Assembly (NCBI GenBank): GCA_029260015.1
Contig: JAJDEB010000032.1
Coordinates: forward strand, 1-64,000
DNA length: 64,000 nt
Origin: Phycisphaerae bacterium
Lineage (GTDB): Bacteria; Planctomycetota; Phycisphaerae; UBA1845
Direction: 5' to 3'
Of this stretch, positions 5,182-50,600 are shown in pieces. Made by a program: the position numbers and the translations under genes. The notes below the pieces were generated by a model. That model worked only from the letters and a program-made list of their open reading frames with translations. It was not told where the DNA came from and ran no database searches. How positions within the stretch are numbered: position 1 is the first letter of the stretch; each line of letters begins with the position of its first letter.

Positions 5182-6825
5182 GTGCTCACGCTTTCCTCAA
5201 CGCAATCGCCTTCTCCAACCGCATCGACACAAGTGCGCGGGTATTGGAATGGCGAACCGGCTGATGTTCAATTCGGCGCTAATGCACTCGCAGCCCTGAT
5301 TCACCAATCTGACAAACCAATATTCGTAGTCGAAGTCGAGGGGAAAATCGGTGCGACACACGCTGGCACCGCAACGCTCGGCGGCGATTTGGAAGATGCT
5401 GCCCATCGAATCATTGCGTACGTACCACCCGTCGCAGCCGACCAGCTTGGCGATGCGACGTTTCGTGAAGAGATGGGCGTGCGGTTTGCGTATGTTTCCG
5501 GAGCGATGGCCAACGGTATCGCCTCCGAGCGATTGGTAATCGCGATGGCCCGTGCGGGCATGATGGGTTTCTTCGGGGCGGCTGGCCTGAGTCCGCAGCG
5601 CGTCGAGAAGGCCATTCAAACCATACAAGGCGAAATCGGTGATTTGCCTTACGGTTTCAACTTGATCCACAGTCCCGACGATGCGGCGCTCGAGTCGCAG
5701 GTTGTGGACCTTTATTTGAAATATGGCGTTCATTGCGTCAGCGCGGCTGCGTTTTTAGGTTTGACGCTTCCGTTAATTCGATACCGCGTAGCCGGAATAT
5801 CGCGCGATGAAAATGGCGCGGTGGTAACGCCGAACAGGGTGGTCGCGAAAGTATCGCGCGTCGAGGTGGCCAAACGCTTCCTCGCACCTCCACCGGACGA
5901 CATGCTGGCGAAACTCGTTGAGGGCAACCATATCACCGAGGCGCAGGCCCAGATGGCCCGCGAGATTCCCGTCGCCAGCGACATCACCGCGGAAGCTGAC
6001 AGCGGTGGACACACCGACAATCGTCCGGCGCTCGCATTGCTGCCGACGATGCTGGCCCTTCGCGACACGATGCAGCAGCAACACGGTTACCGCCAATCGC
6101 TACGTGTCGGAGCAGCCGGCGGAATCGCGACTCCGTCATCGGTGGCGGCTGCGTTTGCGATGGGGGCGTCGTATGTCCTTACGGGAACGATCAATCAGGC
6201 GTGCGTCGAATCGGGAACGTGCGATCTGGTGCGCAAGATGCTAGCCGATGCGAGTCAAGCCGACGTAATCATGGCCCCCGCGGCAGACATGTTTGAAATG
6301 GGCGTGCAGGTGCAAGTGCTCAAGCGGGGAACGATGTTCGCCATGCGTGCCAAAAAGCTTTACGAGTGGTATCGCGCGTTCGCAAGTTTGGATGAATTAC
6401 CCGCGGCGAACCGCCAATCGCTCGAACGCGACTATCTGCGCTGCACTATTGATGAGTCGTGGCGAAGCACCAGTGCGTATTTTGCGACCCGCGATCCCGC
6501 ACAGATTCAAAAGGCAGAGCGCGACCCCAAACACAAGATGGCCCTGGTGTTCAGATCGTATCTCGGGCAATCATCCAACTGGGCAAATTCCGGCGACGCA
6601 TCACGTCAAGCTGATTTTCAAGTTTGGTGTGGCCCATCGATGGGTGCGTTTAACGAATGGGTGCGCGGGACGGAATTGGAAAAACCAGAGAATCGTAACG
6701 TCGTCTCGGTGGCGAAGAACTTAATGAACGGAGCGACGGTCCTGACGCGTGCGAACATGCTCCGCGCTCAAGGCGTTCGCGTACCGGCTGAGGCGATGCA
6801 ATATAAACCGCGATTGGCGGACTGA
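5182..6825 (+). CDS. pfaD: PfaD-like trans-acting enoyl reductase (FMN/2-nitropropane dioxygenase family) of PUFA synthase
   Basis: MANGIASERLVIAMARAGMMGFFGAAGLSPQRVEKAIQTIQ...PYGFNLIHSPDD...VASDITAEADSGGHTDNRPALALLPTML...GAAGGIATPSSVAAAFAMGASYVLTGTINQACVESGT; GTG start. Confidence 0.92.
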   Translation: MLTLSSTQSPSPTASTQVRGYWNGEPADVQFGANALAALIHQSDKPIFVVEVEGKIGATHAGTATLGGDLEDAAHRIIAYVPPVAADQLGDATFREEMGVRFAYVSGAMANGIASERLVIAMARAGMMGFFGAAGLSPQRVEKAIQTIQGEIGDLPYGFNLIHSPDDAALESQVVDLYLKYGVHCVSAAAFLGLTLPLIRYRVAGISRDENGAVVTPNRVVAKVSRVEVAKRFLAPPPDDMLAKLVEGNHITEAQAQMAREIPVASDITAEADSGGHTDNRPALALLPTMLALRDTMQQQHGYRQSLRVGAAGGIATPSSVAAAFAMGASYVLTGTINQACVESGTCDLVRKMLADASQADVIMAPAADMFEMGVQVQVLKRGTMFAMRAKKLYEWYRAFASLDELPAANRQSLERDYLRCTIDESWRSTSAYFATRDPAQIQKAERDPKHKMALVFRSYLGQSSNWANSGDASRQADFQVWCGPSMGAFNEWVRGTELEKPENRNVVSVAKNLMNGATVLTRANMLRAQGVRVPAEAMQYKPRLAD

Positions 6826-6932: not shown

Positions 6933-9900
6933 TTGTCGAACAAAAAGCAAAAATCAACCGCGACTCAAAGCTCGATCGAAACGCAGGAGCCCATCGCGAT
7001 TGTTGGGATGGCTTGCCTGTTTCCGCGGGCGGCTGGCGTTAAGAATTACTGGCGATTGATTCGCGGGTTGGAAGATGCCATCACCGACGTGCCCGACACG
7101 CATTGGCCCGTTGATTCATATTTCGATGCCGATCCAAAAGCCCCCGACATGACCTACTGCAATCGCGGTTCGTTCTTGTCTGCCGTCGATTTCGATCCGA
7201 CAGAGTTCGGCATTCCACCAAGTATTTTGGAAGCGACCGATACCGCGCAGCTCTTGGGATTGGTCACCGCGAAAGCTGCCCTCGAAGATGCCGGCTACTA
7301 CGATCGCGAAGGGCACGACCATTCTCGCACGAGCGTCATCATGGGGGTCACCGGTACGCTTGAATTGGTGATTCCGCTGGGAGCGCGCCTGGGGCATCCG
7401 CACTGGCGCAAGGCATTGAAGGATGCAGGCGTTGAAGATTCGGTCGCCGATGATGTCGTCAAGCGCATTTCAAATAGCTACGTGGGTTGGCAGGAGAACT
7501 CGTTTCCCGGTTTGCTCGGTAACGTGGTGGCTGGTCGTATCGCCAACCGATTGGATTTGCACGGGACGAATTGCGTTGTCGATGCGGCGTGTGCGAGTTC
7601 GCTCAGTGCGCTGCATCTTGGCGCAATGGAATTGGCCACGGGTAAGAGCGACATGGTCGTGACCGGTGGCATCGATTCACTCAATGACATTTTCATGTTC
7701 ATGTGCTTCAGCAAGACGCAGGCCCTTTCACCGACGGGTAATGCCCGTCCGTTCGATCGCGATGCCGATGGGACGGTGATCGGTGAAGGTTCCGGCGTGC
7801 TGGTAATGAAACGATTGTCTGATGCCGAGCGCGACGGTGATACGATCCACGCACTGCTGAAAGGGATCGGAACGTCGAGCGACGGTCGATCGCAAAGCAT
7901 TTACGCCCCGCGACCATCCGGCCAAGCTCGGGCACTTCGCGATGCGTACACCCGCGCCAATGTTAAACCGTCTGAAGTCGGGTTGGTCGAAGCCCACGGG
8001 ACGGGCACGAAGGTTGGCGACGCGGTTGAGTTTGAAGCGCTCAAGACGGTTTATACGGAATCATCGAATCAGGATGGAGCTGACGGACCATGGTGTGCGG
8101 TGGGTTCGGTCAAGTCGCAAATTGGTCACACGAAAGCAGCGGCGGGCGCGGCGAGTTTGGTCAAGACTGTCATCGCCTTGCGCAATCGCGTCTTACCCGG
8201 GACGATCAAGGTTAAGTCACCCAGTCCGAAAATGACAGAGAGCGACAGCCCGTTCTATATCAACACCGAGACGCGACCGTGGCTGACGAAAGGCACCCAG
8301 CCAAGGCGGGCGGCGGTCAGTTCGTTCGGGTTTGGTGGTAGTAACTTCCACGCGGTTTTGGAAGAATATCCGCAAACCAATCGCAAACCGGCATGGGACG
8401 GTTCGGTCGAAATCCTAGCACTGTCTGCCAATGATATGACGTCGCTGCAAAATGACGTCGAAGCTTGGCGATCGCGAATCGCAGAAGGCATCAAGCCGGC
8501 TGAGTTTGCACGCGACGTGCATGCATCCCGCAGCGTTTTTAATTCTAAGCATACTCATCGATTGGTCGTGGTGATCGATGACATGGCCAATGCCGGAGAG
8601 TTGCTGAACAAGGTAGCGGCTAAGCTTCAATCGCCCGATTGCCCGAAATCATGGAATCGCGGCAGCGCGTATTACGCCTCCGAGTCAAAACCGGGCAAGC
8701 TCGCGTTTGTGTTTCCCGGTCAAGGCAGCCAATACGTCGGGATGGCTCGCGACATGGCATGCGTTTTTCCTGAAGCGCTCGATGCGTTCGCAATGCAGCC
8801 CGATGGCATGAGCCAACCGATCGGCGCGTTCATTTGTCCGCCGCCGACTTTCGATTCGGCCAAACGCGAAGAGGCCACCGACACGCTTCGTCAAACCGAC
8901 GTAGCCCAGCCAGCCTTGGCTGTCGCCGAGTTGGCGTATCTTCGCATCCTCGAAGACTTCGGTGTTCAAGCTGATACAGTCGCGGGCCACAGTTTCGGTG
9001 AATTGACTGCGCTCCGGGCGGCAGGTCGGATCAATGATGACACACTGTGTCAGCTCGCGAGACAACGCGGGCAACTCATGCGAGATGGTGATGGCGATCG
9101 CGGGACGATGCTGGCTGTGCATGCATCCGCGAATGCTGTGTCTGAACTGATCAAAGAACAAAAAATCGATGTCGTTCTCGCAAATTGCAACGGTCCGAAG
9201 CAAGTCGTGCTTTCCGGAGCCGCAGAGGGCATCGAATCAGCCGCGAATGCCTGTCGCCAGCGTGGATGGCGGGTTTCGCAGCTTGACGTGTCGGCGGCTT
9301 TCCATAGCCCACTGATGCGTGATGCCGCGATCAAGTTTCGCAAGGTGTTAGACAGCATTGAATTCCACAACGGATCGATTGATGTATACGCGAATCGATC
9401 GGGCGGAGTTTATCCTGAATCGAAATCAGCGGCGCTCGATGTGTTGGCTGGCCAACTCGATGCTACGGTTCGGTTTGAAGAGCAGATCGAGGCGATGTAC
9501 GCAAGTGGCGTGCGGACGTTCTTGGAAGTTGGTCCGAAGCGGGTTTTGTGTGGTTTGATAAAATCGATCCTTGGCGATCGAAGCCATCAGACGATTGCCC
9601 TGGATGATTCCAGTTCGCGAAAGGACGGCGTCCTCGACTTGGCGTGCGCTCTTGGGCAACTTGCGGCATTTGGATTCGCAGTTGATTTGTCCAACTGGGA
9701 AGAACTGCCGAAGGACTCGCGCAAACCGAAGATGGCCATCCCGATTCACGGCATCAACTACCGTGCCCCATTCAAAGAACTACCGCCGGTCGCACCAAAA
9801 CCAAAGGCGAATCCGCAGTCCATTGAAACGACCAAAGTGCAGCCGGCGATACCGGTTGTAGCAACAGGCGATTCAGACGGTCGTACCATTCACACGGAAA

Positions 9901-12900
9901 GAAAATCCATGCCAGAAAACCAAACGCCCGTGCAAAATGTCGCCGCCCAAAGTGCGCCGGCATCGATAGCGAATGCGACGTCTCCTCAGCAGGTCGCCCC
10001 CCAGCAAGTTGCACCTCAGCATTTGACCGAGGTGTTCAAGGTGGTCGAAGAGGGCATTCGAGCCATGCAGTCGTTGCAACAGCAAACGGCAACCGTGCAT
10101 CAACGATTCCTTGAAGGGCAGGAGGAGGCTCAACGAAGTTTCCAGACGGTCATCCAAAGTCAGCAGCAGATGTTTGCGCAAATGGGAGGTGCTGTCGGTG
10201 GGGCTGGCGTTGTTTCGCGACTTGCGCCAGTGCCGCAACCGGTTGCCACCGTTAAAACTCCGGCCGCACCAGCACCGGTAGCAGCGACCAAGGTAGTTCC
10301 CGTCGCAGAGCAAGTGGCAGAACTGTCACGCGCGGTCGCCGGGTCTAAGAAACCTGAAGCAGCCGTTGAGACCATGGCTGTCACAGCGAGCGTCAACGAT
10401 GAGGTTGCGACGACCTTGCTCGAAGTTGTTTCAGAACTAACCGGTTATCCGACTGAGATGATCGACATTGGCATGGACCTCGAAGCTGATCTTGGCATCG
10501 ACTCGATCAAACGCGTCGAAATCCTGGCGTCGGTTCAGGAGCGTCTGCCGAATCTTTCAACAATCGATTCTTCGGAGTTGGGCGGGTTGCGAACCCTTCA
10601 AGATATTCTGAAGGAAATGGGCGTCGCCGAATCGGGCGCGTCTGCATCTTCTGCGATTCCAACGGCAGCGGTTGAAAGTGCGCCGAGTGCATCGGTAGAA
10701 GAATCACCGCTTCGTAGCGTCCTCTTGGAAGTGGTTGCGGAGTTGACCGGTTATCCGGTTGAAATGCTCGACGTTAACATGGATCTGGAAGCGGACCTGG
10801 GTATCGATTCGATCAAGCGTGTAGAAATTCTGGCAGCAGTCCAGGAGCGTCAACCAGAACTTGCAGCCATCGACTCCTCAGAACTTGGCAGTCTGCGAAC
10901 GCTGGAAGACATTCTTAAACAGTTTGGTGCGGAGGCATCCGCCGCGACTGCAGCGCAACCCGCAAGCGCCCCAGCGCAGCAGGCCAACGGTTCAAACGAT
11001 GCCGTGCAAGGCGTGTTGCTCGATGTCGTCAGCGAACTTACAGGTTATCCCGTCGAAATGCTCGACATGGACATGGACCTCGAAGCCGACCTTGGCATCG
11101 ATTCGATCAAACGCGTCGAAATCCTTGCCGGTGTGCAAGAACGTGAGCCGTCGCTCAAGAGCATCGATTCATCGGAACTCGGTTCGATGCGAACACTTCG
11201 CGACATCATCGCCCAGTTGGACGGTGGGGACGTAGCCACTGAGTCAACTTCGACTCCAGTTGTCGCCGAAAGCACAAACGAGAACGCCAAGTCTCGCGAC
11301 GCGTCGGCGGAAGTCGCGCGGCAGGTGTTGGTGCCAGAGGCATTGGAACCGGCTGCCGAACAGCCCATCTGTATTGCGCCGGGATACGAACTGTGGATCG
11401 TCGATGATGGCACTTCGCTAACCAAATCGATCGCCGAAAAGTTGACGGCGCAAGGCATCGCTGCACGGATGGTTGGTTCGTCCGATCCGATTGATGGTGA
11501 AGCGTGCGCACCGGTGGGTGGTGTGATCCATGTGGTCGGACCGGCACCCTACAACGTGTCAGGATTGATGACGGCTGTCACCGAGCAGGTCAAAGACGCG
11601 TTTCGAATGACTAAAGAATTGTCGGCTGACATACAAGCCGCCGCGAAGGAAGGCGGGGCGCTGCTAGCCACGGTCTCGCGCATGGATGGCTGCTTCGGAC
11701 TCACCGAATCGCAGTTCGATCCGAGTCAAGGCGGGCTGGCGGGTCTGGCAAAAACATGCGCCATCGAGTGGCCGGACGTCCATTGCCGAGCGCTGGATGT
11801 AGATGCGAACATGGGCCAGTCGGCGGACGTTGCCGACCGTATCATCCGTGAGTTAAGTGCAACAGGTCCCATCGAAGTTGGCGTGAAAACCAACGGTCGA
11901 TTCGCGTTGGCACTCGAGGATCGCACGATTGACATCAAGTCGATGCCCTTAAAACAAGGCGACGTAGTCGTCGTCAGTGGTGGGGCGCGAGGTGTCACCG
12001 GTGAAACGGCGATCGCGCTGGCCAAGGCATCGAAGGCACACTTCGTCTTGCTCGGTCGATCAAGTGAACCGTTCGCCGAACCGGTGTGGGCCAAGGGACT
12101 TGCCGATGAGGGAAAACTCAAAAGAGCGGTTCTGCAAAATGAATTCGCCAGTGCAAAGAAACCGAGTCCATCCGAGTTGGAAGCGGCATATCGACGTCAC
12201 GCAGCCAACCACGAAATCAACGCGACTTTGGGGCGCATTCAAAAAGCCGGCGGAACTGTTGAGTATCGCTCCGTTAATGTCTGCGACAACGAACAAGTCG
12301 CGGGCGTCTTGAAAGACGTTCGCAAGAAGCATGGACCGATCCGCGGATTGATTCACGGTGCCGGCGTGATCGAAGATGCGTTCATCGCCGACAAAGACCC
12401 CATCGCATTTGATCGCGTGTTTGATACGAAAGTGCAGGGCCTCAATGCTCTCTTGAGCGCTGCGGGTGACGATCCCCGCGTGATCGTTTTATTCTCGTCG
12501 GTCAGTGGACGGTTTGGCCGCCAGGGTCAGGTTGATTATGCGATGGCCAACGAAGTGCTCAATAAGATCGCATCGGTCGAATCGCGCCGCCGCAAAAACT
12601 GTAAAGTCGTCGCAATGAACTGGGGCCCGTGGGACGGCGGCATGGTCACGCCAACGCTTCGCCGACAGTTTGAACGCGAAGGGGTATTCCTGATTCCACT
12701 GCAAGCCGGAGCGCAGTGTCTGGTTGATGAAATCTGCTGCGATGACGCAACGGCGACGGAAGTGCTCATCGGTGGTGGGTTCGATCAAGCCCAAACGCCA
12801 GCAAATCAATCGGCTGCCGCAACCAAGCAACCGACCGCGACCATGACAGCATTTGAACGTCGCGTGAAAGTTGCAGATCATCCATTCCTCAAATCGCATC

Positions 12901-13697
12901 AGCTATCGGGCAAAGCGGTGCTGCCCATGGCAATGATTATCGAATGGCTCGGACATGGTGCGCTGCATGCCAATCCGGGACTGCAGCTTAAAGGTTTAAG
13001 CGATGTTCGCGTGTTCAAGGGTGTCATCATCGGCGACGATTCCGTTGACGTCGAGGTCATGGTGTCGCGACCCGAGTCCGATCAATCAAATCTGCTGGTC
13101 ACAACCGAACTGCGAAGTCGCTCGGCCAACGGTGAATCGATCCTGCATGCCCGTGCCATAGCGCGGTTAGGAGATCGGCGCGAGGCAGCGCCGTCGATCG
13201 ACGAGCCGGGCAGTTTAACAACTGAAAAATTCAAAGGAACCGCTCAGTCGATTTATGACGACGTGCTGTTCCATGACTCCGACTTTCATGCGATCACCGC
13301 GGTCGAAGGAATCGGACCTGACGGGATGGTTGCAAAACTAAATGCTGCACCCAAGCCAGCCGCGTGGATCGATTCGCCGCTGCGAGGGACGTGGCTGACC
13401 GATCCGTTGGTCATCGACGGTGTGCTTCAACTTGGAATTGTTTGGCAGCACGCAAAGACCGGTCACCTTTCACTGCCGGGATACGTTGCAAGTTTTGAGC
13501 AATACATGGATCGCTTCCCGAAGGGGCAGGTACGATGCGCCCTTCATGTTCGCGAATCGTCAGCCAGTCGGATCGTCGCTGAAGCAACCTTGCGCGACCA
13601 GGCTGGAGCATTGATCGCGAAGCTAGACGGCTGCACCTGGACGACCAACGCACAGTTGGCCGACGCATTCGGAAAGGTGTCGAGCCGATCGGCTTAA
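6933..13697 (+). CDS. pfaA: PfaA-like polyunsaturated fatty acid synthase / type I iterative PKS: KS-AT-ACPx3-KR-DH
   Basis: KS VVDAACASSLSAL, HGTGTKVGD; AT FVFPGQGSQYVGM, VAGHSFGELTAL; three LGIDSIKRVEIL ACP motifs (10491, 10797, 11091); KR VVSGGARGVTGETAIALAK; C-terminal hotdog/DH HPFLKSHQLSGKAVLPMAMIIEWL; TTG start. Confidence 0.93.
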   Translation: MSNKKQKSTATQSSIETQEPIAIVGMACLFPRAAGVKNYWRLIRGLEDAITDVPDTHWPVDSYFDADPKAPDMTYCNRGSFLSAVDFDPTEFGIPPSILEATDTAQLLGLVTAKAALEDAGYYDREGHDHSRTSVIMGVTGTLELVIPLGARLGHPHWRKALKDAGVEDSVADDVVKRISNSYVGWQENSFPGLLGNVVAGRIANRLDLHGTNCVVDAACASSLSALHLGAMELATGKSDMVVTGGIDSLNDIFMFMCFSKTQALSPTGNARPFDRDADGTVIGEGSGVLVMKRLSDAERDGDTIHALLKGIGTSSDGRSQSIYAPRPSGQARALRDAYTRANVKPSEVGLVEAHGTGTKVGDAVEFEALKTVYTESSNQDGADGPWCAVGSVKSQIGHTKAAAGAASLVKTVIALRNRVLPGTIKVKSPSPKMTESDSPFYINTETRPWLTKGTQPRRAAVSSFGFGGSNFHAVLEEYPQTNRKPAWDGSVEILALSANDMTSLQNDVEAWRSRIAEGIKPAEFARDVHASRSVFNSKHTHRLVVVIDDMANAGELLNKVAAKLQSPDCPKSWNRGSAYYASESKPGKLAFVFPGQGSQYVGMARDMACVFPEALDAFAMQPDGMSQPIGAFICPPPTFDSAKREEATDTLRQTDVAQPALAVAELAYLRILEDFGVQADTVAGHSFGELTALRAAGRINDDTLCQLARQRGQLMRDGDGDRGTMLAVHASANAVSELIKEQKIDVVLANCNGPKQVVLSGAAEGIESAANACRQRGWRVSQLDVSAAFHSPLMRDAAIKFRKVLDSIEFHNGSIDVYANRSGGVYPESKSAALDVLAGQLDATVRFEEQIEAMYASGVRTFLEVGPKRVLCGLIKSILGDRSHQTIALDDSSSRKDGVLDLACALGQLAAFGFAVDLSNWEELPKDSRKPKMAIPIHGINYRAPFKELPPVAPKPKANPQSIETTKVQPAIPVVATGDSDGRTIHTERKSMPENQTPVQNVAAQSAPASIANATSPQQVAPQQVAPQHLTEVFKVVEEGIRAMQSLQQQTATVHQRFLEGQEEAQRSFQTVIQSQQQMFAQMGGAVGGAGVVSRLAPVPQPVATVKTPAAPAPVAATKVVPVAEQVAELSRAVAGSKKPEAAVETMAVTASVNDEVATTLLEVVSELTGYPTEMIDIGMDLEADLGIDSIKRVEILASVQERLPNLSTIDSSELGGLRTLQDILKEMGVAESGASASSAIPTAAVESAPSASVEESPLRSVLLEVVAELTGYPVEMLDVNMDLEADLGIDSIKRVEILAAVQERQPELAAIDSSELGSLRTLEDILKQFGAEASAATAAQPASAPAQQANGSNDAVQGVLLDVVSELTGYPVEMLDMDMDLEADLGIDSIKRVEILAGVQEREPSLKSIDSSELGSMRTLRDIIAQLDGGDVATESTSTPVVAESTNENAKSRDASAEVARQVLVPEALEPAAEQPICIAPGYELWIVDDGTSLTKSIAEKLTAQGIAARMVGSSDPIDGEACAPVGGVIHVVGPAPYNVSGLMTAVTEQVKDAFRMTKELSADIQAAAKEGGALLATVSRMDGCFGLTESQFDPSQGGLAGLAKTCAIEWPDVHCRALDVDANMGQSADVADRIIRELSATGPIEVGVKTNGRFALALEDRTIDIKSMPLKQGDVVVVSGGARGVTGETAIALAKASKAHFVLLGRSSEPFAEPVWAKGLADEGKLKRAVLQNEFASAKKPSPSELEAAYRRHAANHEINATLGRIQKAGGTVEYRSVNVCDNEQVAGVLKDVRKKHGPIRGLIHGAGVIEDAFIADKDPIAFDRVFDTKVQGLNALLSAAGDDPRVIVLFSSVSGRFGRQGQVDYAMANEVLNKIASVESRRRKNCKVVAMNWGPWDGGMVTPTLRRQFEREGVFLIPLQAGAQCLVDEICCDDATATEVLIGGGFDQAQTPANQSAAATKQPTATMTAFERRVKVADHPFLKSHQLSGKAVLPMAMIIEWLGHGALHANPGLQLKGLSDVRVFKGVIIGDDSVDVEVMVSRPESDQSNLLVTTELRSRSANGESILHARAIARLGDRREAAPSIDEPGSLTTEKFKGTAQSIYDDVLFHDSDFHAITAVEGIGPDGMVAKLNAAPKPAAWIDSPLRGTWLTDPLVIDGVLQLGIVWQHAKTGHLSLPGYVASFEQYMDRFPKGQVRCALHVRESSASRIVAEATLRDQAGALIAKLDGCTWTTNAQLADAFGKVSSRSA

Positions 13698-13706
13698 GCG
13701 CTTCAA

Positions 13707-16700
13707 ATGTCCGCTTCATCTGAAAATTCAGCGTTTAAGGATCAGCCCATCGCCATCGTGGGACTGGGCGGATTGTTTCCGGAGGCGCCCACGCTTGATG
13801 CGTTTTTGAAACTTATTTTAAGCGGTACGGATACGTCGCGCGATGTATCGCCGCAGCGTTGGGTGGCAGATCCTGCCCGAATATGTTCTGCCGAGTTGAA
13901 GGAAGATCGTCCGTTTCATTCGCGCGGATGTTATATCGACGACTTTGCGTTTGATCCTTCCGGTTTTGATCTACCCGTCCAACTGCTCAATTCGCTCGAT
14001 CCAACGTTTCAATTCATGTTGCATGCCAGTCGCGCAGCGCTGGGCGATGGCAAGACAGATTCGATCGATCATAAACGCATTGGCGCGGTGTTGGCTGCGA
14101 TCGCACTGCCCACGGATGCCACGTCGGCATTGACCCGTGAAGTGTTGGGCCGAGAATTCGAACGACGTCTGCTAGGCGATCAAATCAAGGGTGGCTCGCA
14201 GATTGAAGGGCACACTGATCCGATCAATCATCACGCCGTAGGGCTACCTGCCGGCATCGTTTGTGCGGGGTTGGGTCTTGGCGGCGGAAGCTTCACTCTG
14301 GATGCGGCGTGTGCGTCGAGCCTGTACGCAATCAAATTTGCATGCGATGAACTTCACGCCCACCGCTCCGATGCGATGTTAGCCGGCGGGGTGAATCGAC
14401 CGGATTGCCTCTATACGCAGACGGGATTCACCCAGCTTCGTGCGCTGTCGCGCAGTGGACGGTGTCGCCCCTTCGATGCGTCAGCCGACGGATTGATGGT
14501 CGGTGAAGGGGCGGGTGCTGTGCTGCTCAAACGTCTTGACGATGCAGTTCGCGATGGCGACAAGATTTACGGTGTAATTCGCGGGATAGGCCTATCGAAC
14601 GATGTGGCTGGTAGTTTGTTGGCGGCGGATTCCGAAGGCCAACTGCGGGCGATGCGACAGGCGTATCAACAAAGCGGCTGGTCGCCAGCGGATGTGGATG
14701 TGATCGAGTGCCACGGGACCGGCACGCCGCTGGGTGATGCGGTCGAGTTTGGCAGCCTGTGCGAACTTTGGTCGCAAGACAAATGGTCGCCGGGGCAGTG
14801 TGTTCTCGGTTCGGTTAAGTCAAACGTGGGTCACTTGCTGACCGGTGCGGGAATTGCGGGTCTGCTTAAAACCTTGCTCGCGATGAACGCCAAGACGCTC
14901 CCGCCATCGGCAAACTTTGAGCAGCCGTCACCGAAACTCGGCATTGATTCGAGTCCGTTCCAAGTCATTTCAAAGCCGACGCCTTGGAACACCCGTGACG
15001 CCGGCACACCAAGGCGGGCGGCGATCAGCGCGTTTGGATTCGGCGGTATCAATGCCCATTTGCTGCTTGAAGAATTCAACGAATCGTCCAAACGCAAAGT
15101 CTCGGTCAGTCCGACTCCGATTCGGGAAAAATCAAACGCCTGCATCGTCGGAATGTCGGCGCACTTTGGCTCGATCTCAGGGATCGACGAATTCGAGAGC
15201 GTGGTCTTTTCGGGAACCTCCACAGTCGCGAAGCGATCGGACGATCGTTGGCGCGGTGCTGTCGATTCAGCGGACGCATTAAGCGCAGTCAACGGCGCGT
15301 ACATTGATAATGTCAGCGTTCCGATCGGTGAGTTCAAAGTCCCACCGGCAGAGATCCGAGAATCATTACCGCAGCAGATGTTGATGCTGAAGGTTGTCGC
15401 TGAAGCGCTCGACGACGCGGGCATTTCGCGAAGTGCGTTAGGGCCGCGATTTGGCTGCATCATTGGCATGACGCTCGATGCGAGCGCGTCAAACTATCAT
15501 TTGCGTTGGGCGATTCCGGAACTCGCCCGAGGTTGGGCGGCGACTTTGGGTCTGCAACTGTCCGACGATGAATTCGAAGCATGGGTCAGCGACCTGCAAG
15601 ATGAAGCCAGTCAGCCGCTCACTTCCGGACGCGTGGTGGGTTCGCTCGGTGGCATGGTCGCAAGTCGCATCGCCCGCGAGTTTGGCATCGGTGGCCCCAG
15701 CCTGACCATGTCTGCCGACGATAATTCCGGATTGCGCGCTCTTGAACTAGGTGCCCGCATGCTCGAACGCGGCGAACTTGACGGCGTGGTAATCGGTGCG
15801 GTTGATCTTCCATGTGACGTGAGACGCATTCTTGGCGATCGCGGAATCTACGTTGAGCAGCAACGCGTGACGCCGTTAGATGCCGACTCGAAGGGCACAT
15901 TGCCCAGCGATGGGGCGGTCGCGATGGTCCTGAAACGTGTCGCCGATGCGAAGGACGCTCGGCACTACGCACGCCTGCGAGGATTTGGATTCGCCGGTGG
16001 AACCGCGCCGGGGCAAGTTGCGAAAGTAGTCTATCGGTCGGCGATCGATCGTGCATGTGACGATGGTAACGTAGAGTCTGCATCTGTAGGCATGATCGAA
16101 ACGGCTGGGGCGGGCCGACCGGAATTCGATGCTTTGGAAAGCGAAGTTCTCGGTGCGCTCTTTGAGCACGACGACTCTCATGCCAAGTGTGCCATTACGT
16201 CAGCCGCAGCTTCAATCGGTTATTCTCACGCGGCGTCCGGATTGGCGTCGGTTGCGAGTGCGGCGCTTTGCCTGCACCGTCAGACGATTGCGCCGATTGC
16301 AGAGTTCAGCAATTTATACGATGCGCTGGCAAAGCATGATCGCTTCTACGTCGCACGCGAAAGTCAGCCGTGGCTCCGCAATCGATCGGAAGGTCGGCGG
16401 CGCGCCGGGGTCAGCGGAATATCGTTTCACGGTGAATGTGCCCACGTTATTTTAGAAGAAGCAGACGCCTCACCCATCTCGCCGACGCACCGCAATCAAG
16501 ATGAAATGCAGGCCACCGTGTTTCGATTTGGTGGAGCAAGCATCGCCAAACTTTGCAGCAAGTTTGATGAGTTGAAACAATTTATCGAAACGCACGAAGG
16601 AGACATCGCACGCCTCGGCGGAATCTGGCACGAACAGCACAAAGCGAATACGGCAGACCAAGAAGTCGCAACCATCGTTGCGGGCGATTTGGAAACGCTC

Positions 16701-19700
16701 CGCGCGTCGCTGCTGGAAACCAAGAATCGAATCTTGAGTCAACCGGCTCAACCCATCGCGGGCGAATCAGGTGCATACTATGTGCCTGAACCCATGACCG
16801 ATGGCGAACTGGCATTCGTCTATCCGGGCAGTGGTGTTCACAAACTCGGCATGGGTCGGCAGCATTTGCTCGATTGGCCGGTGATGGCTCAGCGACTCGA
16901 CGCCCGGTTCGGTCATCTCGCGGATCAATTCCTGCCGCAATGGGTGATGCCTCGTCGATTGGATTACACCGGAAACTGGCGGCGTCAGGCACATGCCGAA
17001 TTGTCTTCAGACGCGCGGCGCACGATCATGTCGCAGGTGTCGTATGGTTCGCTGGTCACCGACATCCTGCGTGATGCGGGAATCATTCCAGACGCAGCAA
17101 TTGGCTATAGCCTCGGCGAAACCACCAGCCTGATCGCGCTCGGTGTTTGGCCCGACCGTGACGGGATGGCCAGCCGCCTGATGAAATCGCCCCTGTTCGC
17201 GTCAGAGTTGGCGGGTGAATGCACGGCGGCTGCCCAACACTGGAAACTCGGCAAGAACGATGCAGTTTCGTGGACCGTTTTCGCCCTGAATCAACCATCC
17301 GATCGCGTGCGCAAAGTGATAAAAAAACTCGACCGAGCGTACTTGCTGATTGTCAACGCTCCGGGTGAATGTGTCGTGGGCGGGCAGCGTGATCAGGTCG
17401 AACGACTCATCGCGTCATTGGGTTGCGAGGGCGTTGAACTTTCAGGGGCATCGGCAGTGCATTGTCCGGTGGTTCAGGAAGTCGTCAAACAATATCGCAA
17501 GCTGCATCTGCTCGAAACGAGTGTGCCAAAGGGGACACGATTCTACAGTGCGGCATGGGGACGTTCTTACGATGTGACCAAGGAAACGGCGGCTGACTCC
17601 ATCACTGCCCAGGCAACCGACGGGTTCGATTTTGCGAAACTGATTTCGCAGGCCTACGAAGATGGCGTGCGATACTTCGTCGAAGTCGGCCCGCAAGCGA
17701 CGTGTACGCGAATGATCCGAAGTATCCTCGGCAATCAGCCGCACTTCGCGGCGTCGGCGAGCGATCATGTCGATGATGAACGGAACCCGTTGATGCGCCT
17801 GATCGCTGCGCTTGTTGCCCACCGTGTGATTGACGACGTTGATGGTTTGTATCATCACGTCAGCGAACGCCCGCAGAAAATTCAGCCAGCCAACCGACCG
17901 ACGGTCACCATTGCCACCGGCGGGCCGGCATTCAATCCACCCACACCGGTCACGGCGCAACGTTTGGCACAAGCGCCGCAATACGACGTGCCCGCAACGA
18001 TCACGCCCGATGAACCAGCAGCTACGCCCGCGCAAGTTCCAGTACAGTCGCAGCAGCATTACCCAACGCATACCGAGGAACCGATGCAAGATCAACTGAT
18101 CGCCACGATGGCCGCAACGAACAAGGCAACGTCAGACGCCCATGACACGTTTCTACGGTTTTCGAAAAATGCGATGAACGATCTCGCCGAAGCGTTGACC
18201 ACGCGACAACAACTGCTGAGTCAGATGAACGGCGCTGCCGAAGTGAAAGCGCCGACAACACAAATCAAAACACCGCAAGTCTCAGTACCGCAGACGCCCG
18301 TCGCTTTCGATCGCGAAAAGTGCATGGAATTCGCCATCGGCAAAGTTGCCAATGTGCTCGGTCCGGATTTCGCAGAGGTCGATCAGTATCCGGTGCGGGT
18401 GCGTTTGCCCGATCAACCGCTCATGTTGGTCGATCGCATTTTGGAAGTCGAAGGGATCAAGCGATCGCTGGGTGGTGGTCGGGTCCTCACCGAAAAAGAT
18501 GTGAGCGCCGGCGATTGGTATCTCGATGGTGGCCGGATGCCGATTTCAATCACAGTCGAATCGGGTCAAGCCGACCTGTTCTTGTGTTCATACCTTGGCA
18601 TCGATCATGCGGTAAAGGGCACGCGATCGTATCGATTGCTTGACGCCACGGTGCGGTTTCATCGCGGTTTGCCTGTGCCCGGTGAAGTGATTCGCTATGA
18701 CATACGCATTGATCGATTCGTCAAGCAAGGCGATACATACCTGTTCTTCTTCGCGTTTGAAGGGACGATTGCCGGCCAACCGTTGCTAAGCATGTCCGGT
18801 GGTTGCGCCGGTTTCTTCACCGAAGATGAAATTCGCGGTTCCGGTGGCATCATCGAGACGGCAGAAGAAAGGGCGAACAAGCCCGGCATCCCGCTCGATG
18901 GCCTCACGGAATTAGTGCCATGTTGTGACATTGAGTCATATGACGAGCGGCAGGTGGATGCATTACGGGCGGGTGATCTCGCTGCGTGTTTCGGCGAAGC
19001 GTTCGCAGGGTTACCGCTTGCTCAACCGATCAAACTTCCTTCAGGCAAGATGCGTTTGGTTCACCGCGTCACCGAGTTGAACACGGCTGGCGGACGGTTT
19101 GGCAAAGGTCTCATCCGCGCCGAAGCCGATATCCATCCGGACGACTGGTTCCTGACTTGCCATTTCGTCGATGACATGGTGATGCCCGGTACGCTGATGT
19201 ACGACTGCTGCGTGCAGACGCTGCGCATTTTTCTGATGCGAATTGGCTGGGTGGCTAAGCATGACTCAGTTGCTCACGAGCCGGTCATCGGCGTGTCGAG
19301 TGCCCTTCGATGTCGCGGTCCGGTCACGCGTGCGACCAAGGTCGTGACCTACGAATTGCACATTAAGGAAATGGGATACGGTCCAGAACCCTATGTGATC
19401 GCCGACGCCTTGATGTATGGCGATGGCGAAAAGATCGTCCGTTTCATCGACATGTCGTTGAAGATGACGGGGACCAACAAGCAGAAGCTCGATGAGTTGT
19501 GGGCGGGTGCAAGCAATCCTACCGGGCAAATCAGTCGGACCGACTCTGATCGAAAAGCCGTCGCACCAATCGGCGAACTGGTTGTGTCGCCCAATCCCAA
19601 GCCAGCCATCTACGACTACGATCGCATTCTTGCGTTTTCGATCGGCAATCCTTCTGAAGCGTTTGGCGATCGCTATGAAGTTTTCGACGAGCAGCGGCGT

Positions 19701-20792
19701 ATCGCCCGTCTTCCCGGTCCACCGTTTCAATTTCTCGATCGCGTCACGGAAGTTCACGCCAAACCGTGGGAACTCAATGCTGACGGTTGGATCGAATGTC
19801 AGTACGACGTTCCTGCAGATGCGTGGTACTTCGGGGCGAATCGTCAGCGCAGCATGCCATTTGCCGTGCTCCTCGAAATCGCGTTGCAGCCGTGCGGATG
19901 GTTAGCAGCTTTCAAAGGCTCGGCGCTGGCAAGCGACGAGGATCTGAAATTTCGAAATCTCGATGGTGACGCGATCCTCTACCGCGAGGTCTTCCCCGAC
20001 GCGGGGACCCTGACCGTTCGCGCACGGATGACGCAGGTATCAAGAGCCGGCGGAATGCTCATCCAGAAATTCGACATGCAGGTCTGGCAGGGCGAGCGCA
20101 TCGTCTACGACGGCAACACCGCTTTCGGATTCTTCACCAAGGGCGCACTCGCCCGGCAGGTTGGAATCGGCGACCCCGAAAGCAAATGCTACCAACCCAA
20201 TGATGCCGAAATTGCCCGGGCGATTGCGGTTTCGTGGGAATCGTGCGATCCATTTACACCCGACGAAACAGCTACGCCACCAACCACCGGCGCGATGCTT
20301 CCTGGCAAGGCGTTTCAAATGATCGACCGCGTTGACCTGTTTGTCCCGGACGGCGGGTCAAAAGGGCTGGGATTCATACGAGGATCGAAGGATGTGGACC
20401 CGGATGAGTGGTTCTTCGCAGCTCACTTCTACCAGGATCCAGTATGTCCCGGATCGCTGGGACTCGAGTCGATGCTTCAGTTGTTGAAAATCGTAGCCAT
20501 CGAGCGATTTGGGTCTGACCTTGTATCCAGGAGTCATTTCACGCCGATTATCATTGGCGCGAAGCACACATGGTCGTATCGTGGTCAGATCATCCCAGCC
20601 AATCGGCGTGTCGAAGTTTGTGCCAATGTGACTTCGATCGAGGCTGGGGGCGGAAACGGAAACGAATTTGCATCATCTCCCACCGCAAGGGCCACCACCA
20701 TTAAGGCAAATGGTTGGCTGAGTGTTGACGGAATCACCATTTACGAAATGGGTGAATTCGGCATATCTTTGGTGCCAGATGGTCAGCAGTAG
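13707..20792 (+). CDS. pfaC: PfaC-like PUFA synthase subunit: KS-CLF-AT-(FabA-like hotdog DH x4)
   Basis: KS DAACASSLYAIKFA, HGTGTPLGDAVEF; second KS with no catalytic Cys (TMSADDNSGLRAL = CLF); AT FVYPGSGVHKLGMGRQ...AAIGYSLGETTSL; hotdog motifs PDQPLMLVDRILEVEG, CHFVDDMVMPGTLMYDCCVQTLRIF, PPFQFLDRVTEVHAKPW, KAFQMIDRVDLF...AHFYQDPVCPGSLGLESMLQLL. Confidence 0.9.
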   Translation: MSASSENSAFKDQPIAIVGLGGLFPEAPTLDAFLKLILSGTDTSRDVSPQRWVADPARICSAELKEDRPFHSRGCYIDDFAFDPSGFDLPVQLLNSLDPTFQFMLHASRAALGDGKTDSIDHKRIGAVLAAIALPTDATSALTREVLGREFERRLLGDQIKGGSQIEGHTDPINHHAVGLPAGIVCAGLGLGGGSFTLDAACASSLYAIKFACDELHAHRSDAMLAGGVNRPDCLYTQTGFTQLRALSRSGRCRPFDASADGLMVGEGAGAVLLKRLDDAVRDGDKIYGVIRGIGLSNDVAGSLLAADSEGQLRAMRQAYQQSGWSPADVDVIECHGTGTPLGDAVEFGSLCELWSQDKWSPGQCVLGSVKSNVGHLLTGAGIAGLLKTLLAMNAKTLPPSANFEQPSPKLGIDSSPFQVISKPTPWNTRDAGTPRRAAISAFGFGGINAHLLLEEFNESSKRKVSVSPTPIREKSNACIVGMSAHFGSISGIDEFESVVFSGTSTVAKRSDDRWRGAVDSADALSAVNGAYIDNVSVPIGEFKVPPAEIRESLPQQMLMLKVVAEALDDAGISRSALGPRFGCIIGMTLDASASNYHLRWAIPELARGWAATLGLQLSDDEFEAWVSDLQDEASQPLTSGRVVGSLGGMVASRIAREFGIGGPSLTMSADDNSGLRALELGARMLERGELDGVVIGAVDLPCDVRRILGDRGIYVEQQRVTPLDADSKGTLPSDGAVAMVLKRVADAKDARHYARLRGFGFAGGTAPGQVAKVVYRSAIDRACDDGNVESASVGMIETAGAGRPEFDALESEVLGALFEHDDSHAKCAITSAAASIGYSHAASGLASVASAALCLHRQTIAPIAEFSNLYDALAKHDRFYVARESQPWLRNRSEGRRRAGVSGISFHGECAHVILEEADASPISPTHRNQDEMQATVFRFGGASIAKLCSKFDELKQFIETHEGDIARLGGIWHEQHKANTADQEVATIVAGDLETLRASLLETKNRILSQPAQPIAGESGAYYVPEPMTDGELAFVYPGSGVHKLGMGRQHLLDWPVMAQRLDARFGHLADQFLPQWVMPRRLDYTGNWRRQAHAELSSDARRTIMSQVSYGSLVTDILRDAGIIPDAAIGYSLGETTSLIALGVWPDRDGMASRLMKSPLFASELAGECTAAAQHWKLGKNDAVSWTVFALNQPSDRVRKVIKKLDRAYLLIVNAPGECVVGGQRDQVERLIASLGCEGVELSGASAVHCPVVQEVVKQYRKLHLLETSVPKGTRFYSAAWGRSYDVTKETAADSITAQATDGFDFAKLISQAYEDGVRYFVEVGPQATCTRMIRSILGNQPHFAASASDHVDDERNPLMRLIAALVAHRVIDDVDGLYHHVSERPQKIQPANRPTVTIATGGPAFNPPTPVTAQRLAQAPQYDVPATITPDEPAATPAQVPVQSQQHYPTHTEEPMQDQLIATMAATNKATSDAHDTFLRFSKNAMNDLAEALTTRQQLLSQMNGAAEVKAPTTQIKTPQVSVPQTPVAFDREKCMEFAIGKVANVLGPDFAEVDQYPVRVRLPDQPLMLVDRILEVEGIKRSLGGGRVLTEKDVSAGDWYLDGGRMPISITVESGQADLFLCSYLGIDHAVKGTRSYRLLDATVRFHRGLPVPGEVIRYDIRIDRFVKQGDTYLFFFAFEGTIAGQPLLSMSGGCAGFFTEDEIRGSGGIIETAEERANKPGIPLDGLTELVPCCDIESYDERQVDALRAGDLAACFGEAFAGLPLAQPIKLPSGKMRLVHRVTELNTAGGRFGKGLIRAEADIHPDDWFLTCHFVDDMVMPGTLMYDCCVQTLRIFLMRIGWVAKHDSVAHEPVIGVSSALRCRGPVTRATKVVTYELHIKEMGYGPEPYVIADALMYGDGEKIVRFIDMSLKMTGTNKQKLDELWAGASNPTGQISRTDSDRKAVAPIGELVVSPNPKPAIYDYDRILAFSIGNPSEAFGDRYEVFDEQRRIARLPGPPFQFLDRVTEVHAKPWELNADGWIECQYDVPADAWYFGANRQRSMPFAVLLEIALQPCGWLAAFKGSALASDEDLKFRNLDGDAILYREVFPDAGTLTVRARMTQVSRAGGMLIQKFDMQVWQGERIVYDGNTAFGFFTKGALARQVGIGDPESKCYQPNDAEIARAIAVSWESCDPFTPDETATPPTTGAMLPGKAFQMIDRVDLFVPDGGSKGLGFIRGSKDVDPDEWFFAAHFYQDPVCPGSLGLESMLQLLKIVAIERFGSDLVSRSHFTPIIIGAKHTWSYRGQIIPANRRVEVCANVTSIEAGGGNGNEFASSPTARATTIKANGWLSVDGITIYEMGEFGISLVPDGQQ

Positions 20793-20811: not shown

Positions 20812-21858
20812 TTGTTCATGAAATACGATAAGGTCAGGTTGGCATCCATTGGGTACGAACTCGCGCCCAACGTTGTCACGTCGGCGGAAATTGAAGAGCA
20901 ATTGGCGCCGTTGTACGACAAGTTCAGTCTGCGCCGAGGGCAATTGGAGCGCCTGACAGGCGTCACCGAACGGCGTTTCTGGGAGGCTGGCCAACCCATT
21001 TGGGTGCCCGCTGCAAAAGCCGGTAAGAAAGCGATCGACCTCGCGCGCATTTCTCCCGCTGATATTGGAATTTTCATCTACGCAGGCGTTTGCCGCGATA
21101 ATTTGGAACCGGCGACCGCATGCGCTGCTGCAGATAATCTTGGTGTGGGTCCTGCCGCAGAAGTGTTTGACGTCTCGAGCGCGTGTCTGGGAGTACTCTC
21201 AGGGATTGTTCGGATTGCCAACGCCATTGAACTCGGACAAACCCGTGCGGGGTTGGTAGTGGCCTGCGAATCGGCTCGCGAAATCGTTGAACAGACGATC
21301 GGTCGTTTACTCGAAGACCCCGATCCAGCGACATTCAAAAAATCCCTGGCAACCATGACCGGCGGGTCGGGTGCGGTTGGCGTTCTTCTGACCGACGATT
21401 CGTTTGGCGATCAGGGGCATCGACTGCTTGGCGGGGTCGCTCGCAGCGCACCGAAGTATCACGGTTTGTGTCGATGGGGGCCGGCCACCGGTGTTTCGGC
21501 TAGCGCTCCGATGGAAATGGAAACCGATGCTGCCGCCGTCCTAGAGCATGGGGTCAAATTGGGAGCGGAAACCTGGCAGGAATTCAAGTCAGTCTTGGGT
21601 TGGGGAAACGGTCAGCCCGATCGCATCGTCTGTCACCAGGTCGGTTCGTGGCATCGCAACGCCATTCTCAAAGCGTTCGAGTTCCCATCTGACGGCGACT
21701 ACGTGACGTTCTCCCATCTCGGTAACATCGGCACAGCGTCGCTACCCATGACGGCTGCCATGGCCGATGAGCGCGGGTTTCTGCAAACCGGACACAGAGT
21801 TGGTTTCTGCGGAATCGGCAGCGGACTGAATTGTCTGTTTCTCGGGTTCGACTGGTAG
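20812..21858 (+). CDS. 3-oxoacyl-ACP synthase III family protein, OleA-like
   Basis: LERLTGVTERRFWEAGQ, AGVCRDNLEPATAC, DVSSACLGVLSG (Cys), CHQVGSWHRN (His), SHLGNIGTASLP (Asn), CGIGSGLNCLFL. Confidence 0.85.
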   Translation: MFMKYDKVRLASIGYELAPNVVTSAEIEEQLAPLYDKFSLRRGQLERLTGVTERRFWEAGQPIWVPAAKAGKKAIDLARISPADIGIFIYAGVCRDNLEPATACAAADNLGVGPAAEVFDVSSACLGVLSGIVRIANAIELGQTRAGLVVACESAREIVEQTIGRLLEDPDPATFKKSLATMTGGSGAVGVLLTDDSFGDQGHRLLGGVARSAPKYHGLCRWGPATGVSASAPMEMETDAAAVLEHGVKLGAETWQEFKSVLGWGNGQPDRIVCHQVGSWHRNAILKAFEFPSDGDYVTFSHLGNIGTASLPMTAAMADERGFLQTGHRVGFCGIGSGLNCLFLGFDW

Positions 21859-21963: not shown

Positions 21964-22776
21964 ATGAATCCGAGCGTATTCACGCCAAGAGTTTGGTGTC
22001 TGGTTTCATTCCTGGCGGCTTTGTCGCTTGCACTACCCTCCGAGGCCCAACAAAAAGATGGCGATCCACCCACCAAGAAAACGTATCGGGGGGTCATCGG
22101 TCCGGACAGCGAGAAGATTCGCGTAGAAGGTGACAAGACGTTTGTGTGGGGTGGAAAGAACCCGAAAACCGGAGAAGAGGAATGGTACGACTTCACAGGC
22201 GCGCCCTTTGCCGCTTCGGAACTTCAGTTCGGTATCGGCAAATACCGCATCGTAGCAATCGATGATCCGGTGTATGTCAAGCCTACAGACCAGAGGCTCA
22301 TGGCGGGGCCAGTCAGCCCATATCGAAAAGATGAACGACCATCAAAGATTGATGAAATCATGGTGATCGGCTGGGCCGAGGGCGACGACGTTCGAGCATA
22401 TCCGATTTCACTTCTCGATCGGCACGAGTTGGTCAACGATACGATTGGCGGAAAACCAGTGACGGTAGGGTGGTGACCGCTGGCTAAACTGTCCGTGGTT
22501 CACGGACGCGAAACAAACGGGAAACTGGATTCATTCGGTGTCAGCGGATTCGTCCACAAAGATGTCTTTTTGATCTACGATCATGCCACCCAAAGCCTTT
22601 GGTATCCGCTGGACGATGAAAAATGGACCGCGATAAGCGGAAAACGCAAGGGTGAGACGATATCATTTCTTGCGGAGCCTGCTCCGGTTTCTCTCGGAGA
22701 ATGGCGCAAGAAGCATCCCGACACCAAAGTGCTGCTCGGTTCAAAGTCACGGCTGGAAAAGCAAGGGAGTGGATGA
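21964..22776 (+). CDS. DUF3179-domain secreted protein with in-frame UGA at 22474-22476 (candidate selenocysteine codon; otherwise a nonsense-interrupted gene)
   Basis: ORFs 21964-22476 and 22495-22776 share one frame and together give one DUF3179 domain: VIGWAEGDDVRAYPISLLDRHELVNDTIGGKPVTVGW-U-PLAKLSVVHGRETNGKLDSFGVSGFVHKDVFLIYDHATQSLWYPL; N-terminal signal peptide. Confidence 0.75.
22488..22507 (+). promoter_or_regulatory. candidate bacterial SECIS-like hairpin (CTGTCCGTGGTTCACGGACG)
   Basis: GTCCGTG-GTT-CACGGAC, 7 bp perfect stem with G first in the apical loop; loop about 21 nt after the UGA. Confidence 0.5.
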
Positions 22777-47617: not shown

Positions 47618-50600
47618 CTATATTTGATTGTCTTGGTTGGCGGGCTTGGAAGTCAACCCCATGTCGTTGAGTATTGTGTAGAGACACGGAATAACCAGCA
47701 AAACCAGCACCGTTGAGGCCAACAGTCCGAAAACAATGCTGATGGCCAAGGGGATTAGTATTTGCGCTTGAAGACTGTGCTCGAACAGCAGCGGGGTTAG
47801 CCCGGCGATCGTGGTTAGTGATGTGATGGTGATGGCTCGAAAACGCTCTCGGCCGGCGCGACATGCAGCCTCCGGAATGTCTGCGCCTTCGAACGCCCGC
47901 ATTTTGAGAAACAGCACGAGCAGAATCGAATCGTTCACGACAACGCCGGCCAATGACACAAACCCCAAAAGGCTCGGCATGCTGATGTCCATTCCCAATA
48001 GCAGATGCCCCCAAACCACGCCGACCAACGCGAGCGGAATCGCCACCATGACCACGAGTGGTTCGATATAGCTGCGGAACTGGAAACTGAGCAGGATGAA
48101 AACGCCGATCGACCCGATGAGAATTCCCCGACGCATGGACGCCTGCGTGACCGTTGCTTCTTTGGTTTCGCCCTCGATTGAATATTCGATGTGTTTGTAT
48201 TGCTTATGAAGCTTGGGAACGAATTCCGCTTCAAACAGTTTCATGATTTGCGCGGTATTGGTCTGCTTGCTATCCAGGTCGCCGCGCAACGATACCGTTC
48301 GTTTTCCGTTGACGCGTGCGATCCTTGACCAACCGACGCTCTCTTCGATGGTCGCGACCGAATCGAGCGGGATTTGCTTCCCATCAGGCAGCGTGCAATG
48401 GAAATAGTCGAGGTCGGCGAGGTTGTTTCGCGCGTTGCTGGCCAGTCGAACTTCGATTTCGTACGACTCGGGTCCGACCTGAAACTCGTCGGCAGTCACG
48501 CCCGCATACGCCGCCCGCAATTGCCGAGCGACATCGCTGCCAAACAGTCCGAGTCCCGCAGCTCCAGCCCGCATACGAACCCGCATCTCCGACTTACCTT
48601 CATGAAGATCGACGGCGAGGTTGCTCACCCCGCGAAATGCTGCGAACCAATTCTGGGCATCGAGCGCGGCTTTTCGAAGGGTCAACAAGTCGTCACCCAT
48701 GAATCGGATTTCGATGTTGCGGCCAGCCGGTCCCAACCCTGGTTCGGTGAGTACAAGCTGTTGAACGTCTGGTAGGTCGCCGATTGCGGTGCGCCATTGT
48801 TCGAGGATGTCATCCACGCGGGCGTTGCGAACTTCAGCGGTGAGCAGGTCGGCGAAAATCGTGGCAACGTGTGGGCCTGTTTCGAAGGCGTCCTCGTTAA
48901 GATTGAATCGCGAATAGACGGTGGTCACCAAGTCCTGCTCATCGGGTTGCAGCGGTTTCATTTCGTCATTGACCTTCGCGAGACTATCCCTGATCTGTCC
49001 GACTACCGATTCGGTCTTCTCGAACGGCGTCCCAGCCGGCATCAATAATCGTGCAACAACCAGGTCGCCGTCCAACTCAGGAAACGCCTGAAAACGAACC
49101 ACACCGCCAGCGAACAATCCGGCAGACAACAAGAACACGAAGAACACGCATCCCACCCACAGGTAGCGCCAGTGCATCAGGGTATCGATCAGGCGGCCAA
49201 ACACGTGCTCACGCACCCAGTCGATCGCATCGTCAAACCGCTTGCGAAATCGATTGACCGGTTTGTCGGGCGAAGTGTGCAATGCGTGGCCAAGGTGCGC
49301 AGGCAAAATAAAGAAGGCTTCAATCAGACTGACGACCAACACGAGGATCAAAATAATCGGGACGACTCTTAGGACCTTACCAATGTTGCCATCCAATGCC
49401 GCCAACGGACCAAGCACGGCGACCGTGGTGATGAATGAATTGAACACACCCGCTGAAACTTCGCTCACGCCATCGATGGCTGCATCCAGAGACGCTTTCC
49501 CACGAGCGCGGTGCGACGCGATGTTTTCGGCGATCACAATCCCGTCATCCATCAACAGCCCCAACGCCAAGAGCAAGCCGACCATCGTCATCATGTTGAT
49601 GGTCAGGTCGAAACTCGGCACGAAAAAGAACGCTCCCAAGAATGAAACGGGTAGACTCATCACCACCCAGAATGAAAGCTTGGCGCTAAAGAATATCCAC
49701 ATCGCCGCGAAGACCAGGATCATTCCCTGCCAACCGTTGGTGATCAGCATTTGAAGGCGATCAATCACCAGCGTCGACTGGTCCTGCGTCAATTTGATTT
49801 CGAGTTGGGGCAAGCGCTCCCGTTCAACTTCAAGAAATTCCTTAACGGAACGGGCGACGCGAATGATGTCCTGATTCTTGGTCTTCTTGATCTGCAGCAG
49901 ACCCGCACGCCGATCACCGAGGTTGATGCGGTCTTCCTTGAGTTCAAACAGATCGATGACCCGGCCCAGATCGCGCAGTTTAAGCTCTGCTCCGTTGCGC
50001 CCGGCGATAATGATGAGTTCTTCCAATTCGCGCGGTGAAGTGCGCTGCTCGGTGAAACGCACGAGGATGTCGCGTTGGGCGGTTTCGATCACACCGGCAG
50101 GCAAGTCCACACTTTGGCGGGAGATCATGTCGGCGATGTCGGCGACGCTGACGCCATGTTTCATCAGCGCTTGCGGTTCGAGTTCAATGCGAAACTGATG
50201 GTCGGCGAAACCTTCAATCTCGACAAGCGACGCCTCCGATTCGGTTTGCAGCCGACGCTTTAGATCTTCGCAGTATGCCTTGAGGTCCGGTGCGGACATC
50301 GGACCAGCCACAAGGATCGAAAGCACGGGGTCGGTCATGTGCAATTGTGTGATGATGGCGTCTTCAACGTCGTCGGGAAAGTCGTCGATCGCAGCCACTT
50401 CGGTGTCGATCTCATCCTTGAATGACACAAAGTCCGCACCTTCTTCCATCTCGACGGTGATGACGGCTACGCCTTCTCGCGCTTCAGATCGAATCTCTTT
50501 GACAAATCGCACGCCGTCGATCGCGTCTTCCACCCGTGAACAAATGACCTCCTCGACTTCCTCAGCCGTCGCACCACGGTAGGGGACGCGGATTTGCACT

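Follow-up and report, generated by a model that had tools for sequence, protein, structure and literature searches.

The closest described systems pair a Pfa polyunsaturated fatty acid (PUFA) synthase with the OleABCD hydrocarbon pathway. Geobacter bemidjiensis carries both in a tandem cluster, pfaD,A,B,C-oleA,B,C,D-pfaE, and makes C31:9 (PMC4882568). In Escherichia coli, oleA together with pfa yields a 31:8 ketone, and the authors of that study argue that OleA draws its acyl chains from the Pfa ACPs (PMC6463001). Earlier surveys retained oleA only when it had oleBCD (PMC7158056) or at least other ole genes (PMC7064751) nearby, and would thus miss systems with oleA and oleBCD at separate sites. 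The locus described here combines a known pathway with a new gene layout: oleA sits in the pfa operon and oleBCD lies elsewhere. It was found in a 64,000-nucleotide stretch of DNA (the window) from a Phycisphaerae genome of 5.36 Mb in 48 contigs, estimated to be 94.6% complete.

The operon reads pfaD-pfaA-pfaBC-oleA on the forward strand, with oleA as its last gene. The PUFA synthase enoyl reductase gene pfaD (5182-6825, +) matches TIGR02814 with 656 bits (cut-off 449) and contains a PfaD_N domain. It is followed by pfaA (6933-13697, +; TIGR02813, 1594 bits, cut-off 1010), for which Pfam domains give the order KS-MAT-ACP(3)-KR-PKS-type DH and which contains three DLGIDSI motifs (ACP), DAACAS (KS) and GHSFGE (MAT). 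The next gene (13707-20792, +) had been read from sequence as pfaC; it is indeed a Pfa gene, but a pfaBC fusion (KS-CLF-AT-DH) rather than a separate pfaC. Its KS, CLF, AT and three FabA-like stretches were assigned from Pfam, motifs and partial matches to TIGR02816 and TIGR02813, the TIGR02816 region scoring under that model's cut-off, and in the CLF the active-site Cys is replaced (SADDNS). The domain set of a Pfa PUFA synthase (PfaA, PfaD, PfaB/C) is thus present, with TIGR02813 and TIGR02814 both over cut-off. A search of the genome for a PfaE-type phosphopantetheinyl transferase found none, the sole PF01648 match being a 129-aa, AcpS-sized frame on contig C30; activation of the Pfa ACPs is therefore unexplained, which we count against the explanation preferred below. 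Elsewhere in the window, an ORF after oleA (21964-22476) has no match beyond a short segment of DUF3179, with similar short matches in two other genomes (G003, G002), and two AcrB-type efflux pump genes (47618-50725 and 54151-57321, -) have an ABC ATPase gene between them.

The sequence-only reading placed an OleA-like gene at 20812-21858, 20 nt after pfaC. The ORF is real (348 aa from TTG 20812) and its same-strand downstream position stands, but the start and the gap do not: because the OleA family alignment begins at ATG 20818, this is the likely start of oleA (20818-21858, +; 346 aa), 25 nt past the stop of the upstream gene. All four motifs quoted in that reading (LTGVTERRFWEAG, VCRDNLEPATAC, LGNIGTASLP and GIGSGLNC) occur in the product, and the Cys, His and Asn it described as kept are Cys125, His275 and Asn305 in the alignment with Xanthomonas campestris OleA.

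Several lines of evidence identify the product of 20818-21858 as OleA, with a predicted condensing function. It scores 440.8 bits (cut-off 285) against NF006720 / PRK09258; this model bears the name "3-oxoacyl-ACP synthase III", and we treat it as the one for OleA. The best sequence matches in the PDB are the OleA proteins of X. campestris and X. oryzae (184-189 bits), followed by a KAS III at 62 bits. With an AlphaFold model (pLDDT 92.7) as the Foldseek query, the 28 best PDB matches were OleA, ahead of FabH: 27 X. campestris chains and X. oryzae 3fk5, which was deposited as FabH. Glu99, Cys125, His275 and Asn305 align with Glu117, Cys143, His285 and Asn315 of X. campestris OleA (PDB numbering); the Glu, which is OleA-specific and comes from the neighbouring subunit, is Phe in E. 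coli FabH. A published OleA search pattern, EPxx[AS]x(14,18)DxxNACL (PMC7158056), fails on this protein, which reads DVSSACL with Ser for Asn. The mismatch is not disqualifying, because the pattern is a search motif and no catalytic requirement; the Ser is found in G000 (the genome of the window), G001, G003 and G004, and the congener G002 and most relatives have NACL. In the OleA tree described below, the protein falls outside FabH and deep within the Pfa-associated OleA clade, E. coli FabH being the only FabH row and a far outlier (end branch 2.43). A position within the FabH clade, which the sequence-only reading had set as its own refutation, was not seen. FabH or another KAS III as its identity is ruled out by model score, fold and tree. 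The OleA assignment in the sequence-only reading is thus backed by model, tree, fold and catalytic Glu, and the head-to-head condensation of the Pfa product that it predicted gains support from these last three together with Pfa co-occurrence and operon position. The genome encodes a single OleA; two other proteins gave KAS III-like matches, one of them FabH-like, on C28, and the other weaker, on C26. A search of a plasmid collection returned only KAS III proteins with <30% identity to the window OleA.

Among the larger annotated ORFs of the window we recognised no oleB, oleC or oleD, as had been noted from sequence, but the genome does not lack them. Contig C16 carries an intact one-strand operon in the order oleB-oleC-oleD (L055:8308-12001, -). 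Its OleC (C16:723847-725511) is the only one in the genome over the family cut-off (NF006754, 726 bits, cut-off 478). The OleB-like neighbour of OleC is an alpha/beta hydrolase with the nucleophile motif HDWGG, there being no specific model for OleB, and the OleD-like reductase has an OleD-type model as its best NCBIfam match, under the cut-offs (397 of 580). No oleA lies beside this operon, and no second OleA was found elsewhere in the genome. The split recurs in the congeners G001, G003 and G004, where, as in this genome (G000), oleA and oleBCD are on different contigs; for G002, pfa-oleA and oleBC lie on contigs too short to tell a split from a joined layout.

A 38-row OleC tree, carefully built and unrooted, addresses which kind of oleBCD this is. 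One branch with support of 100/100 has all 21 Pfa-bearing rows on one side and all 16 Pfa-lacking rows, most of them from two families, on the other; without a root, the tree does not establish the Pfa side as a clade. As a prediction, this grouping was open to failure, and it held. OleC from the genus of the window groups with OleC of complete pfa-ole clusters, and because it groups with OleC of Pfa-bearing genomes, the remote operon on C16 looks like the relocated partner of the oleA in the pfa operon. Recruitment of a FAS-type oleBCD is ruled out by the same tree.

These results bear on an alternative in which OleA acts without OleBCD and the end product is a polyunsaturated ketone, formed by decarboxylation of the beta-keto acid. 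Such a reading draws on the joint presence of OleA and pfa with oleBCD outside the operon, and on the ketone that OleA alone gives in E. coli (PMC6463001). We nevertheless regard it as quite improbable: an intact oleBCD operon is present in this genome and in the examined congeners, with no other oleA as its partner, and the C16 OleC groups with those of Pfa-bearing genomes. A pathway stopping at the beta-keto acid or ketone for want of oleBCD, as the sequence-only reading allowed, is not upheld, oleBCD of the Pfa-associated type being present on C16; a pathway without oleBCD is ruled out by the genome search.

The distribution of OleA was examined in about 790 planctomycete genome entries, comprising 397 genomes of the class and a phylum sample of 392, with few genomes in both. 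In the class set, an OleA with at least 51% identity to the window OleA is present in every one of the 37 PfaD-bearing genomes, and PfaD is absent from all 33 genomes whose OleA is 38-47% identical. Two further class genomes have an OleA of at least 51% identity and no PfaD match: in G004, pfaA and pfaBC adjoin oleA and the contig ends before pfaD, and G336 is 85% complete. PfaD occurs in 53 genomes of the phylum sample; for five of these (G465, G478, G520, G649 and G719), the search at E 1e-45 returned no OleA. A pfa cluster therefore need not imply a hydrocarbon, and these five clusters may make another product. PfaD-bearing G407 has a single OleA match, which belongs to the X. campestris kind and lies on a 3.4-kb contig of its own (C193); the 20 kb examined around the pfa cluster of G407 (L220, on C68) contain no OleA match. 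PfaD-like enoyl reductase domains were also seen at G471:C82:28315-29634, G471:C4:26175-27446 and G726:C9:1442-2758, in very long open frames (8935, 10517 and 1909 aa) that recall giant polyketide synthases.

A tree of 164 aligned OleA-like rows (quick IQ-TREE, LG+G4, SH-aLRT only) drew on every PfaD-bearing genome that gave an OleA match and on a subset of those lacking PfaD. Two rows not marked by a PfaD search (L010 from G004, and L006) were labelled Pfa because pfa genes adjoin their oleA, and no label was given to L007, L002 or L087. One branch (SH-aLRT 100; 86 rows) holds 83 of 84 Pfa-labelled rows, 2 of 76 Pfa-lacking rows (G336 and G537) and L007. The Pfa label changes 4 times on the tree, against 53.8 in shuffles; we do not rely on a Fisher value of 1.7e-42, which ignores the relatedness of the genomes and was computed with 75 instead of 74 Pfa-lacking rows outside the branch. 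Families f1, f52 and f74 each contain both kinds of OleA, so species kinship alone does not explain the split. By sequence, planctomycete OleA clearly falls into two kinds, one found almost only with Pfa synthases.

That pattern weighs on a further alternative, that OleA condenses ordinary FAS-II acyl chains and that its position in the pfa operon is incidental. X. campestris OleA does use FAS-II chains and has the same fold; against this, the kind of OleA tracks the presence of Pfa phylum-wide and within f1, f52 and f74, and does so even in genomes in which oleA and pfa are not linked; we think the idea very unlikely. Equally improbable, in our view, is that the enzyme primes the Pfa synthase, or passes its acyl product to membrane lipids, with no two-chain condensation: the gene directly follows pfaBC and FAS II is generally primed by KAS III enzymes, but in the tree the protein groups with OleA and apart from FabH, it keeps the OleA-specific Glu, and in relatives oleB-oleC-oleD directly follow OleAs of the Pfa clade, so that the priming or offloading role also entertained in the sequence-only reading finds no support.

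Residues were compared between 81 Pfa-type and 73 other OleAs; because neither group includes the exceptional rows of the tree, the comparison contrasts clades that had been chosen in advance. The two kinds differ nearly completely at seven positions (44, 158, 181, 184, 222, 241 and 308), the Pfa type being nearly fixed for Q44, I158, T181, G184, W222 and T308 and having no Glu at 241. A Cys occupies position 104 in 77 of 81 Pfa-type proteins and in 7 of 73 others. Together these positions are candidate determinants of specificity. Whether they mark two specialised OleA lineages, one of them dedicated to Pfa ACPs, we judge to be an even call; if so, the split layout would imply that a Pfa-OleA unit and an OleBCD unit are functionally separable.

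We consider it highly likely that the locus belongs to a pfa-ole system, with oleA in the pfa operon and oleBCD remote, in which two Pfa-made chains are joined into a C31:9-type hydrocarbon. The Pfa synthase would build a polyunsaturated acyl chain on its ACP domains, by analogy 16:4 n-3. OleA would take two such chains, probably directly from the Pfa ACPs, and join them head to head to a beta-keto acid; in the final steps, which the literature assigns to these three enzymes, OleD would reduce this, OleC close a beta-lactone, and OleB remove CO2 to leave the polyunsaturated hydrocarbon. The computational basis of this scheme is OleA membership, the catalytic residues, the genome-encoded oleBCD and a history shared with Pfa. 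For the chain length, the hand-over from the ACPs and a C31:9-type final product in this organism, we infer from the described systems. Because oleBCD lies elsewhere in the genome, the product is very probably a known bacterial polyunsaturated hydrocarbon and not a new compound.

Relatives show other arrangements of the same genes, among them a joint pfaD-A-BC-oleABCD cluster. A single run of pfaA-pfaBC-oleA-oleB-oleC-oleD occurs at L063, L064, L226 and L227/L228, and L223/L224, adjoining stretches of one contig, have the order pfaA-pfaBC-oleABCD as well. A Desulfobacterales contig (L006) carries pfaBC-oleABCD, the tail of a full cluster. In G048 and the majority of family f8, oleA, oleC and pfaD lie far from one another or on separate contigs.

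Taken with these relatives, the locus extends the Pfa-OleABCD hydrocarbon pathway over many planctomycete lineages. What makes OleA use Pfa over FAS-II chains is a question raised previously (PMC6463001), and it is now testable, with both kinds of OleA within families and a short list of residues to swap. X. campestris OleA (PDB 3row, 4kti) shares the fold of the window OleA (TM 0.92) and its catalytic Cys, His, Asn and Glu. However, it is FAS-II-fed, is only 34% identical, lies outside the Pfa-associated clade and differs from that clade at all seven near-fixed positions. The PfaBC fusion is common to the window cluster and the Pfa-like "Type I" clusters of Geobacter and Gemmata (PMC3098273). 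Shewanella and Photobacterium likewise have a Pfa synthase and OleABCD in one genome, with OleA linking both pathways (PMC6463001); their oleABCD is one operon, beside or away from pfa, whereas oleA is the one ole gene in the pfa operon of the window. The G. bemidjiensis cluster has the same gene order as the window up to oleA, and its OleA, OleB, OleC and OleD families are all present in this genome; the layout reads as a cluster of the G. bemidjiensis type with oleBCD moved away.
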